Assembly: GCF_028368935.1 (NCBI RefSeq)
Contig: NZ_JAQNDK010000001.1
Span: 434,001 to 498,000, forward strand
DNA: 64,000 nucleotides
Direction of reading: 5' to 3'
Source: Sorangium aterium
GTDB taxonomy: Bacteria; Myxococcota_A; Polyangia; Polyangiales; Polyangiaceae
Positions 629 to 31,176 of the stretch are shown one piece after another. The stretch's first letter is position 1, and each line of letters opens with the position of its first letter. Below the pieces are notes generated by a model, which was not told the DNA's origin, did no database searches, and worked only from the letters and a program-made list of their open reading frames with translations. The translations under genes and the position numbers were made by a program.

Positions 629-843
629 GAGAAACCCACAGCACACGGCAATTCCCTGGACTTCGGCAGATCTACGGCGCATGTCACTGGAAGCGCTCGG
701 CAGGATCGGTCGAGCTGGGGAGTCCGCCTTCGGGCGAGAGCGGCAAGAACGCGTGGTTCCGTCATCTCCTGAGATTTCGCGTCCCGGTCCGGTTGCGCTC
801 CCCTCGCCTGTTCCGTTACGATTCGTCCGTTAGGAGCCTCTGT

Positions 844-2136
844 TTGAGTCCCGATTTCGTTCCATTGCCAGCGCTCGGCGCTGCAGTTCTCTCCGCTGTA
901 CTTGGCTCGCTGTTCGTCGGTGCCGACACCGCACTGACGACGTTGAGCGCGACGAGGCTCGGCGCCCTGATTGAGCAGGCGACGGGCCCCACGAAGTCCG
1001 CCTACGAGCGGATTCGTCGAGAAGACGCCAAGCTCCGTTCCCGCTACCTGCTCGGCTGGGTCGTATCGACCAGCCTGACGGCCGCCTGCTTCGACCTCTT
1101 CTTCCGGCGGGTTGTCCCTGGCGCGGCGCTCTATCTCGGGCTGGCGACCACGATCGTCGTCAGCGGAGCCCTTTACGAGGTCAGCTCCACGCTGGGCCGC
1201 AAGCACGCCGATCGGGCCGCATCGATGGCGGTCCGCTTCTTGCGCCCTCTCGAAATCGCCATGCTGCCGCTCGCCGTACCGCTCGGCTGGATCGGCTCCA
1301 AGCTGGGGCCGCGGGACGGTGAGCAGCCGTCGGACCCGAGGGTTGCCGAGGCGGAGGTCGAGATCCTCGTCGATGAGGTCGAGCGCTCTGGTCTGTTCGG
1401 GCGGGAGCCGGCGGAGATGATCCGGAATGTGCTCGAGTTCGCCGATCTCACGGCGCGGGACGTGATGGTGCCGCGGTCCAAGGTCGAGGCCATCGAGATC
1501 TCCACTCCGCTGGAGAAGGTGCTGGAGATCGTCACCGAGAGCGGGCACTCGCGGTATCCGGTCTACAAGGATCAGACCGACAACATCGCTGGTCTTCTCT
1601 ACGCGAAGGACCTGTTCAAGGTCCTCGAGGAGCGCCGGCTCAAGAACACGACGCTCCGGGAGATCACGCGGAGCCCTGCCAATTTCGTCGCCGAGTCGCA
1701 GCCTCTCTCCTCTCTGCTCCGGGAGATGAAGAGCCGGAGACAGCACCTCGCGATCGTGGTCGACGAGTTTGGCGGTATGTCGGGGATTGTCACCCTGGAG
1801 GACGTGCTCGAGGAGATCGTCGGAGACATCCGGGACGAGCATGACGAGACGGACGACGGTGCCGCCATCCAGGATCTTGGCGACGGCCGCTTGGTCGCCG
1901 ACGCGGCCGTGTCGATGAGCGATCTCTCGGCCTACCTGGGCGCCGAGCTCGACCGGGAGGGAAAGTACGATTCCCTCGGCGGGATGATCACGCAGCACGT
2001 CGGCAAGGTGCCCGAGGTAGGCACGGCCGTGAGCAAGTTCGGCCTACGCTTCATCGTGCGCGACAGCGACGAGCGCCACATCGGCAAGGTCGAGATCGTC
2101 CGCCCCCGCGCCATGGGCGCCGGCGGCGCGGCCTGA
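844..2136 (+). CDS. CNNM/CorC-family membrane protein with CBS pair (hemolysin-C-like)
   Basis: A 430-residue protein with an N-terminal membrane region (DUF21/CNNM type, first ~150 residues with hydrophobic segments), a CBS-domain pair (ARDVMVPRS starts the first, GMSGIVTLEDVLEEIVGDI ends the second) and a C-terminal CorC_HlyC domain (YDSLGGMI). The family is linked to Mg2+/Co2+ efflux and ion homeostasis at the inner membrane. I chose TTG 844 because TAGGAG at 831-836 lies 7 bases before it; the in-frame TTG at 793 has no such site. The first two membrane helices are less hydrophobic than in typical members. The family is sure; the transported ion is not. Confidence 0.85.
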   Translation: MSPDFVPLPALGAAVLSAVLGSLFVGADTALTTLSATRLGALIEQATGPTKSAYERIRREDAKLRSRYLLGWVVSTSLTAACFDLFFRRVVPGAALYLGLATTIVVSGALYEVSSTLGRKHADRAASMAVRFLRPLEIAMLPLAVPLGWIGSKLGPRDGEQPSDPRVAEAEVEILVDEVERSGLFGREPAEMIRNVLEFADLTARDVMVPRSKVEAIEISTPLEKVLEIVTESGHSRYPVYKDQTDNIAGLLYAKDLFKVLEERRLKNTTLREITRSPANFVAESQPLSSLLREMKSRRQHLAIVVDEFGGMSGIVTLEDVLEEIVGDIRDEHDETDDGAAIQDLGDGRLVADAAVSMSDLSAYLGAELDREGKYDSLGGMITQHVGKVPEVGTAVSKFGLRFIVRDSDERHIGKVEIVRPRAMGAGGAA

Positions 2137-2173
2137 AGCGGCGGGCCGCGCGGGAGGCATTGGCGAGCTGCCC

Positions 2174-2337
2174 GGCCCGGAGCGAGGGGGGGCGTCGCGC
2201 GGCACGGCGCGGGGCCCCGCCGAACTCGCCCAAGTGACAAAGCTCCTCCGGCTTCGCCGGAGGAGCTTTGTCACTTGGGCTCAGACATCGGCCCATCCCC
2301 GCGCCGTGCCGCGCGACGCCCCCCCTCGCTCCGGGCC
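2174..2337. repeat. Large two-level palindrome with 41-bp perfect arms
   Basis: Bases 2174-2214 are the exact reverse complement of 2297-2337 (41 of 41). Inside, 2228-2252 is the exact reverse complement of 2256-2280 (25 of 25) with a TTC loop. Only the connecting pieces (about 13-16 bases each side) are imperfect. The element lies between a gene ending at 2136 and a convergent gene ending at 2538. No T-run follows, so a classical intrinsic terminator is not shown, but the transcript would fold into one long hairpin. It could be a bidirectional terminator, a MITE-like remnant or a cruciform site. Confidence 0.9.
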
Positions 2338-2362
2338 TACCGTCCCACCTCACGCGCCGCGG

Positions 2363-2416
2363 GCGGCGCTCCAGATCTGCCGCGGCCGAGCGGCGCTCCA
2401 GATCTGCCGCGGCCGA
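2363..2416. repeat. 27-bp perfect tandem duplication
   Basis: Bases 2363-2389 and 2390-2416 are identical 27-mers, each containing BglII-like agatct and SacII-like ccgcgg centres. A third copy begins (gcggcgcg) and diverges. The duplication lies between the large palindrome and the second inverted repeat, in the same 400-base convergent spacer. Confidence 0.9.
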
Positions 2417-2438
2417 GCGGCGCGCGCCCGCACAGGAG

Positions 2439-2515
2439 ACGGGCCCAGATCGGCGTTTTCGGCGCGCAGGCGCACTCCGGTGCGCCGAGCACCGAAAACG
2501 TCGAGATGGGCCCGT
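2439..2515. repeat. Imperfect long inverted repeat
   Basis: The left arm starts acgggcccagatcggcgttt and the right arm ends in gagatgggcccgt. The arms pair over about 37 bases with roughly six mismatches, including the shared block cgttttcgg. The element ends 23 bases before the stop of the minus-strand gene at 2538, so it may end transcription of one or both converging genes. Confidence 0.75.
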
Positions 2516-2537
2516 ATCCGAAGCGGGCGCGTGCCGC

Positions 2538-3743
2538 TCAGCGGGCGAGGGAGATTTTGTGGAGCTCGTTCGCGAGATCGTCGCCCTCCTTGATGAGGCC
2601 GGGCGTCTCTTCGACGGGGTTGTCCTTGTTGCCGTCGAGCGTCTTGCGGATGTCCGCCATCGCGCTGGCGAGCCGGAAGACCATCTGCTCGCTCGTGAGG
2701 CCTGCAACGGACTGAGGATCGACCGGGAGGGCCTGCAGATCGCCGCCGGCGATGTCGCCCTTCGTCCAGCGGGTGGCCTCCTTCTCGGCGGGCTTCAAGC
2801 CCTGCTGCGTGCGCTCGAGGCGGCTCACCGTGTACTTCGCCGGCCAGTCCTTGCCGAACGGGAACGGCGCCTTGTTGGGAACGAGCTCGGCCACCGTCTT
2901 GTCGCCGTCCCGGCGGAAGACCACCGAGAAGTTCACGACCGGCTCCTCCTGCTCCTTCCACGATTTCTCGACGGGAGCCTGCGCGGCGGAGAGGACGTTC
3001 TTGAGGCTGTCCTTGGTCTTGTTCAGATCCTGGACCGCCGTGGTGTAGGTGAGGAGCTGGCGCATCACCCGCCCCGGGAGGCTGCCGATCTGCTTGCCCT
3101 CCAGGTTGGTGGCGTCGAACGGGACGTTGATGCCGCCCAGCTCGTTCACGAGCTCCGCGGGGAACTTCTTCCCCTCGAGCGCCGCCCGGCCCGCCTCGAG
3201 CTTCTCCTTCAGCGCCGCCATCTTCTCGTTCGCGGCCTTCACGTCCTTCTCGAGCGCCGCGGCGCCCTCGACCGCGAGCTTGCCGCGATCGCCGCGCTCC
3301 TTCGCGCCGCCGATGGCGAAGCCCACGGCGATGCCGACGACCGCCGCGAGGCCGGCGTAGAGCGCCGTCTTCTTCGAGGCCTTCCGGCGCTCCTGCTCGA
3401 CCTCCTCGCCGACCTCGACCTTGATGGTCTGCGCGGCCGCCGTCGGCTTGGGCGGGGGCGTCTGGATCACAGGACGCGGCGCCGGCGCGAACGGAGGCAA
3501 CGGGATGCCTGGCGAGATCCCGGGCGGAGGCGCGATGCCCCCCACGGAGGGCATCGGCGGCCGCGCGCTCGGATGCGGAGAGGGCACGCCGATCGGGCCC
3601 GCGTTCATGTCGGGAGGCGGCCCCGATCCGGGCTGCGAGCCAGGCACGGGAAGGGGGACGGCCGCTCCCGGCGCCCCGCCTATCGCCGTTTTGCCAAGCC
3701 GAGCCTTCAGATCGATTTTGCTCTTCTTCTTTTCTTCAGCCAT
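2538..3743 (-). CDS. Membrane-anchored Pro-rich protein of unknown function
   Basis: 401 residues. A Lys-rich start (MAEEKKKSKIDLKARLGK) is followed by about 85 residues rich in Pro and Gly, a basic stretch (RRKASKK) and one transmembrane helix around residues 126-145 (ALYAGLAAVVGIAVGFAIGG). An Ala/Lys/Glu-rich coiled-coil-like segment follows (about 150-200), then a folded C-terminal domain. The topology suggests a cytoplasmic Pro-rich tail and a periplasmic domain. GGAG precedes ATG 3743. I recognise no family; it resembles lineage-specific myxobacterial envelope proteins. The spacer upstream is shared with a divergent hydrolase gene. Confidence 0.75.
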   Translation of the reverse strand: MAEEKKKSKIDLKARLGKTAIGGAPGAAVPLPVPGSQPGSGPPPDMNAGPIGVPSPHPSARPPMPSVGGIAPPPGISPGIPLPPFAPAPRPVIQTPPPKPTAAAQTIKVEVGEEVEQERRKASKKTALYAGLAAVVGIAVGFAIGGAKERGDRGKLAVEGAAALEKDVKAANEKMAALKEKLEAGRAALEGKKFPAELVNELGGINVPFDATNLEGKQIGSLPGRVMRQLLTYTTAVQDLNKTKDSLKNVLSAAQAPVEKSWKEQEEPVVNFSVVFRRDGDKTVAELVPNKAPFPFGKDWPAKYTVSRLERTQQGLKPAEKEATRWTKGDIAGGDLQALPVDPQSVAGLTSEQMVFRLASAMADIRKTLDGNKDNPVEETPGLIKEGDDLANELHKISLAR

Positions 3744-5347: not shown

Positions 5348-7732
<2,385 letters not shown>

Positions 7733-30920: not shown

Positions 30921-31176
30921 GGGGCCGGTCCTGTAACCGCTCACACTGCCCAACTACGCCTCATTCCTTCCAACGGCAACCGGGAAGCGGCGGCGCCCCC
31001 GGCCTTCGACGAAGGCGCGCGGGGGCGAGCAGTCCGCCTAGCGCTCGCGGCGCTCGCGGCGCTCGCCTCGCCGCGTGTCCGCGCCGCCGACGGGCGTTTT
31101 CGGCGTTTTCGCTGCCCGCGCGCGCTTTCGAAGGCCGGGGGCGCCGCGCGGGGCGTCCGCATGGTAAGGAGGTCGT

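Follow-up and report, generated by a model that had tools for sequence, protein, structure and literature searches.

Integron attC sites combine a conserved structure with variable stem letters, lie behind a gene in a fixed orientation, and are bounded by the boxes RYYYAAC and GTTRRRY. MITE terminal repeats are conserved between copies, which those of the Sorangium element described here are not. GTAG REPs show a preference for the 3′ ends of genes and for convergent spacers that is similar to that of the present element, and REPtrons can be lost, according to the available portion of PMC3733652. Template copying between hairpin arms is described in the available portion of PMC8794818. In the open-licence literature, to which the survey was confined (subscription papers being outside its scope), no such repeat family was found described; the available portion of PMC10434271 mentions Sorangium for genome size only, and that of PMC3696898 does not mention such a repeat. 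The family reported here is probably best explained as a non-autonomous mobile palindrome that is REP/MITE-like in behavior and whose arms are kept by recopying.

The window, a 64-kb stretch of Sorangium DNA analyzed as a whole, contains about 170 bases of hairpin-forming DNA built from two nested pairs of arms (Table 1). The original prediction had claimed exact outer arms of 41 bp and exact inner arms of 25 bp; both pairs are indeed perfect, at sizes far above chance, and the loop of the inner hairpin is 3 nt. A scan of the window for perfect arms of at least 16 bp, both within about 230 bases, returned three pairs in total, two of which are the outer arms and the inner hairpin of the element. 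The third is an unconnected row of Table 1, a 20-bp perfect inverted repeat with a spacer of 118 bp. Folded as RNA, the element strand reaches −174.7 kcal/mol, compared with a mean of −82.1 (SD 4.2) for shuffled sequences (z = −22), and none of 200 shuffles was as stable; the DNA fold of the same strand reaches −110.8 (z = −19). From the outside in, the fold consists of the 41-bp arms, a 4 × 4 bubble, a 5-bp stem, an asymmetric loop, and the 25-bp hairpin.

Table 1. Positions (in the 64-kb window) of the palindrome, its parts, and its surroundings
Feature	Position	Strand	Remarks
Upstream gene, CorC/HlyC-type membrane protein	793..2136	+	CNNM, CBS, and CorC_HlyC domains
Spacer between the two convergent genes	2137..2537		401 bases
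Left tail GGGAGGcaTTGgCGAGCTGC	2152..2171	+	Fits left-tail consensus of the family
Outer left arm, 41 bp	2174..2214	+	Pairs with 2297–2337 in the minimum-energy fold; perfect complement
Left core strand GGCCCCGCCGAACTCGCC, conserved internal-loop strand	2213..2230	+	Conserved in 14-copy alignment; exact match G000:C1:436213-436230
Inner hairpin left arm, 25 bp	2228..2252	+	
Inner hairpin right arm, 25 bp	2256..2280	+	
Right core strand GGCTCAGACATCGGCCCATCC	2278..2298	+	Conserved in 14-copy alignment; exact match G000:C1:436278-436298
Outer right arm, 41 bp	2297..2337	+	
Right end CCTACCG	2336..2342	+	Minus strand is CGGTAGG (GTAG tag); column conservation falls beyond
27-bp tandem duplication	2360..2386 / 2387..2413		One mismatch
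Family B, second repeat family	2412..2542	.	Distinct high-copy hairpin element, outside the palindrome
Inverted repeat of family B	2412..2465 / 2489..2542		81% complementary
Convergent downstream gene, 401 aa	2538..3743	-	Without Pfam match
20-bp perfect inverted repeat	30990..31147		

The stop codon of the upstream gene lies 35 bp before position 2172. The palindrome had been described as lying in a convergent spacer of about 400 bases together with a 27-bp duplication and a second long inverted repeat, and all three surroundings were found. In the orthologous spacers, one similar unit end of the duplication is retained in G004, and two similar units are present in G002. The second inverted repeat belongs to a family of its own (family B) with 56 matches in the same genome, where 40 of 195 candidates, including that of the window, were scored at 89 to 100% identity. 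G003, G004, and G005 also have family B at the orthologous site, and in the nine copies examined its outer arms vary while remaining mostly complementary (16–21 of 24 positions).

The palindrome is likewise a member of a dispersed family. A BLASTN search of its own 13.47-Mb genome gave 24 matches, counting partial and reverse-strand ones. Among the first 39 genomes searched, its own included, eight had a match; six of these belong to one genus, Sorangium, and the other two had short weak matches only (27 and 45 bp). With a covariance model built from 14 copies, the family was found in all six genus genomes. The 162 model matches, obtained over 85 sources, correspond to 84 copies once the weaker strand of each palindrome is removed (21 in the own genome, G000, 21 in G004, 15 in G001, 21 in G003, four in G005, and two in G002). 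These 84, which include the 14 copies of the model, are the copies among the matches listed, so that the genus holds at least 84, and decayed copies are under-counted since the picking was done with a structure model. Two loci that are considered below, L061 and L098, have no match at the threshold used for the 84 copies, and L017, which lies outside the 84, is apparently a chance match in coding-like sequence. The whole-genome search that had been proposed together with the original prediction thus recovered dispersed copies in this genome and its relatives, instead of finding the palindrome to be the only copy anywhere.

The copies are 146 to 177 bp long, with an outer hairpin of mostly 34 to 46 bp, and they have in common a conserved, asymmetric core with CCGAACTCG on the left strand opposite CTCARACA(T/A)CGG on the right. 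The usual ends of the element are CCGGCC and GGCCTACSG. The right end is usually CCTACSG, and CTAC is found there in 61 of the 84 copies compared with 19 of 1008 control windows. On the other side, a left tail near GGGAGGTCTTGCCGAGCTGC (at least 13 of 20 positions matched) occurs in 41 of 84 copies and in 0 of 336 control windows, its consensus being derived from the same copies on which it was scored. The letters of the arms and of the inner hairpin vary greatly among the 84 copies. Nevertheless, ordinary folding yields an outer helix of at least 26 pairs in 83 of them (the remaining copy, L018, has 16). In total, these outer helices contain 3191 Watson–Crick pairs, 14 G–U pairs, and 72 mismatched positions, and 38 of the 84 folded copies are free of both G–U pairs and mismatches. 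An alternative count over 30 arm positions gave 42 perfect copies out of 84; the 2520 positions include 39 mismatches and 59 gaps.

Some copies have additional features next to the element. A motif like AACCAGGGA, possibly a weak right tail, occurs within 40 bases past the right end in seven of the 84 copies (L094, L099, L104, L129, L130, L137, and L142) and in two of 336 control windows. Short tandem repeats of approximately 20 bp that resemble pieces of the right arm follow the element in the right flank of L134 and in L190. Locus L138 contains two elements (1201–1358 and 1523–1673) in opposite orientation and 164 bp apart, an arrangement reminiscent of paired REPs.

With gene ends called by a rule based on G+C content by codon position and accepted at distances of up to 400 bases, 69 of 84 copies have the stop of a same-strand gene to their left (median distance 36 bp), and 35 have a convergent gene end to their right (median 118 bp). 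A gene end is present on the left only in 39 copies and on the right only in five (p = 1.4e-7), on both sides in 30, and on neither side in 10. Where both gene ends are present, the left one is nearer in 24 copies and the right one in five.

Such sense orientation near gene stops, together with the very stable fold, is what one would see if the element were a structural RNA or the transcription terminator of the upstream gene, with selection on the transcript removing unpaired mutants. The strand-asymmetric core, which is conserved among copies and recurs in two other genera, also agrees with this explanation. Terminator-like sites are absent from positions 2000 to 2700 (scan limited to loops of 3–8), which argues against it, as does the lack of an Rfam match at gathering score in the window. 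A permissive Rfam search of positions 2000 to 2600 gave 11 matches far below the gathering score, all of them microRNA or small-RNA models; we had considered that the core might resemble a loop of 5S rRNA but dropped this as chance, there being no 5S model among these matches. In the 58 copies that end in CCTA, the T count in the 10 nt from the CTA is 2.9, one T being fixed by the CTA itself, compared with 1.5 in the control, and the U-rich tract that follows the GC hairpin of an intrinsic terminator was not found. Of the terminator or structural-RNA role that had been put forward originally, the position behind genes fits, and the U-tract and the Rfam match do not. Taking into account the arm comparisons and site data described below, we consider an RNA or terminator function a possible but rather unlikely explanation of the palindrome.

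The way in which the two arms change together was analyzed in several data sets. In an alignment of 14 copies made without fitting to the structure, pairing is seen in 96.8% of the cells, compared with 78.7% in shuffles, and 45 of 65 pairs show double-sided changes, compared with 21.4 in shuffles. In outer helix 1 of these copies, 99.7% is paired; 21 of 28 pairs have changed on both sides and none on one side only. G–U cells number 67 inside compared with 14 in the outer helix, and at the base of the inner hairpin, two pairs are G–U in four of the 14 copies each. These G–U pairs indicate that the inner part is less strict than the outer part, and they also favor the RNA explanation. In 82 of the 84 copies (L140 and L149 were left aside since their core was not recognized), the first 26 positions of the outer arms hold 2096 Watson–Crick pairs, 20 mismatches, and 16 bulges. 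The 20 mismatches comprise three G–T, four A–C, and 13 others; there is no sign of wobble tolerance in these positions, the numbers being small. The near-equality of G–T and A–C speaks against selection on a transcript, although these few events are too few to count against it in earnest. Imbalances of G–T and A–C in the inner part, and among the single changes of the whole-element tally given below (185 G–T and 342 A–C), were set aside because they are contaminated by the conserved unpaired core.

Comparisons between individual copies gave a similar picture for the outer arms. In 13 pairs that share a site (nine by both flanks and four, L008/L119, L069/L120, L106/L131, and L021/L143, by the left flank only), 289 positions are the same, 64 have double changes, 10 single changes, and two are broken, and 50 are present in one copy only. 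The corresponding numbers for 17 young pairs within one genome are 427 unchanged, 40 double, nine single, one broken, and 66 in one copy only. Both sets were chosen by hand, with some copies in two pairs, and the positions present in one copy only include end effects from cutting at 30 positions. In the comparison of L008 and L119, a 5-nt indel is present in both arms, and the outer arms are perfect in each copy. These copies, which represent the same locus pair as L003/L041, have a common upstream gene and a left flank that is 91 to 94% identical, and the right flank is unmatched. A paired indel of this kind is hard to attain by single steps and thus argues against selection of an RNA structure. 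A cruder whole-fold tally with flanks (20 combinations) gave 200 double, 19 one-sided, and 522 broken cells, the latter mostly from mismatched folds and alignments; this tally was used for the L008/L119 alignment only. In G003, single changes are often as frequent as double ones, and over all pairs of at least 80% identity, taken over the whole element with the core included, there are 1017 double and 1048 single changes, the pairs not being independent. Since outer-arm changes are mostly double-sided and some indels occur in both arms, the sequences suggest that one outer arm is recopied from the other at the DNA level, with decay where copying lags. Given family B, such arm behavior may be general in Sorangium.

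Several copies are nearly identical at unrelated sites. L134 and L135 in G003 are 97% identical, and 16 to 18 of the nearest 30 flanking bases match, compared with nine to 11 of the next 30. L105 and L107 in G004 have nearly the whole element in common in three exact blocks, and their flanks are unrelated. For 15 young or similar pairs, 10 to 19 of the nearest 30 bases match on the left and five to 19 on the right, compared with six to 12 of the next 30 on either side; in L148, L149, and L138b (G003), 16 to 19 of 30 bases of the right flank are in common. The boundaries of the element are therefore not fully sharp, many pairs being partly alike within 30 bases, and the confinement of flank matches to the nearest 30 indicates that what moves is the element, accompanied in some copies by parts of up to 30 adjacent bases. 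By eye, no target-site duplication was obvious in the flanks, and the spacers at empty sites have diverged.

Sites also differ in their occupancy among genomes. The spacer that holds L134 is convergent but without an element in G000, G001, G002, and G004 (as judged by eye), and the G005 locus is not decisive. The window's own site has a full copy in G003, left-end remnants in G002, where the contig ends at this site, and in G005, and none in G001 and G004. At the L107 site, there is a left remnant in G000 and the neighbor family B in G001, and nothing recognizable in G003 and G005 (about 330 bases) or in G002 (91 bases). Only 28 of the 84 copies fall into shared-site groups, of which there are 12, and the other 56 have no partner among the copies compared, which again speaks against a conserved RNA or terminator. 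Reciprocal best matches make up only three of the 20 combinations at shared sites, which suggests that sites are refilled, that copies are converted between one another, or that they diverge fast; a tree of the copies is based on short sequences and has no support values.

Mobility of the family is indicated by copies that are almost the same although their sites are unrelated, and by a site that holds the element in one genome but not in four others. The two near-twin cases could partly be gene conversion, and the empty site could be loss. The mobile-repeat (MITE/REP-like) branch of the original prediction gains support from the dispersed copies, the near-identical twins, and the sites that differ among genomes. 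In an alternative explanation, the palindrome would serve chromosome structure or protein binding and would have spread without transposition, by gene conversion or recombination. Intergenic dispersal is in line with this idea, and the low number of reciprocal best matches would also be expected from conversion; nearly identical copies with flanks that show no relation past the first 30 bases or so, and the site that is empty in four genomes, are not in line with it, and we regard it as quite improbable. Another conceivable explanation is an integron attC-like site, at which a folded strand recombines and which moves along with the gene preceding it, since a stem-variable, structure-conserved hairpin in fixed orientation behind a gene resembles the attC design. 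The ends of the element lack both attC boxes, and at three sites relatives have the preceding gene whether or not the element is there; no gene-plus-element unit that moved together was seen at these three sites. An attC-like origin is thus extremely unlikely.

The irregular copies bear on how a mobile palindrome would be copied. Extra tandem copies of one arm lie beside the element in eight of 84 copies (L014, L015, L016, L146, L151, L012, L056, and L100), with 24 or 25 of 25 matches, and in L012, L014, L015, and L016, the tandem unit takes in flanking bases. Solo right halves, which start at the core, end near CCTRCSG, and lack the left half, were seen in L098 (1180–1250) and L051 (1490–1570), and left-end remnants in L085, L088, L200, and L061. 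The extra tandem arms and the solo halves fit folding of the strand during replication or copying. One specific version of this is that the element copies itself via a folded single strand of RNA or DNA, one arm being synthesized on the other at each move, in a SINE-like or hairpin-replicating manner aimed at gene 3′ ends in the sense orientation. Copying that starts at the right end and stops early would account for the solo right halves from the core and for a left tail that about half of the copies have; the left-end remnants mean that simple deletions are also favored. We consider this route improbable, and the already low weight given to it was lowered slightly because the right end is less sharp in some copies.

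As for the enzyme, a profile search for Y1_Tnp (PF01797) identified no candidate for mobilization in any of the six genus genomes, two of which are fragmented drafts, and the control search was positive in five of 14 known genomes. This result argues against a true REP mobilized by a RAYT (TnpA-REP) tyrosine transposase, and so does the size of 146 to 177 bp compared with 20 to 40 bp, with copies in the tens. GTAG at one end of the palindrome, and a location behind genes and between convergent genes like that of GTAG REPs in the available portion of PMC3733652, would be accounted for by a true REP, which we nevertheless find very unlikely. In the strict sense, the family is not a REP: a RAYT gene was not found, and the family lies out of range in both size and copy number.

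Matches beyond Sorangium were found in two of 39 family genomes outside the genus, one in G050 and two in G043. These elements have the same core strands, including CCGAACTCG, with other arms, and the CCTACSG/CTAC right end is absent from the elements of both genera. In G050, the likely coding frames (G+C by codon position) run opposite to the element strand, so that this copy does not lie behind a same-strand gene. A more distant version is present twice in L188, from another genus (558–732 and 5549–5726), approximately 5 kb apart and in opposite orientation; both copies have a longer inner part that is alike in the two. The DNA between the elements on contig 163 of G043 was considered as cargo and rejected: the ORFs tested comprise one DnaJ domain, the rest being unmatched, and no transposase. 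A search of phages, viral contigs, and plasmids gave no credible match to the element; a 36-bp plasmid match, located where two Aureimonas coding genes overlap, was taken as chance. Matches to the core pattern outside Sorangium (five of 33 stretches) are without a long palindrome, and by our own rough estimate about two would arise by chance.

For the preferred explanation, a mobile palindrome with recopied arms, we propose that an enzyme supplied in trans would recognize the core and the ends in the folded single strand. The outer arms would be kept perfect by recopying, either through template switching in an extruded hairpin or through hairpin-templated synthesis while the element is copied, and recopying would replace a separate compensating mutation for each change. 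As a 3′ hairpin, the element might, in the weakest part of this proposal, also protect the upstream mRNA or terminate it.

When pairing persists in long stems whose letters diverge freely, this is normally taken to prove selection on RNA. In this family, the outer arms show mostly double-sided changes and a paired insertion, which suggest arm copying and would make the family a natural test bed for template-switch hairpin evolution. The idea of a REP would also be widened, to a GTAG-tagged palindrome family that has its core across genera and occurs in genomes where RAYT was not found.

Compared with described systems, the Sorangium element resembles GTAG REPs (REP/REPIN/BIME) in having GTAG at one foot of a palindrome and in being extragenic, behind genes and between convergent genes. 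Unlike these, it is about four to nine times as long, contains a nested hairpin as well as a conserved core, is present in tens of copies (21 analyzed in its own genome), does not conserve its arm sequence, and occurs in six of six genomes in which RAYT was not found. Like a bacterial MITE, it is short and dispersed, and the whole element is an inverted repeat with definable ends, whereas its strong sense orientation behind genes sets it apart; no target duplication was obvious by eye, and no cognate transposon was found among the core-pattern matches looked over in the own genome. In contrast to attC sites, it lacks the end boxes, and at the three sites the gene stays and the element comes and goes. 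Quasipalindrome correction by template switching also perfects inverted-repeat arms and gives paired changes; the available portion of PMC8794818 concerns RNA genes with mostly short stems, whereas here a mobile family with arms of approximately 40 bp and a paired insertion is involved. The element can thus be filed under REP/MITE-type behavior, separate from attC by its ends and from canonical terminators by the lack of a U-tract, with a terminator role that is predicted only.
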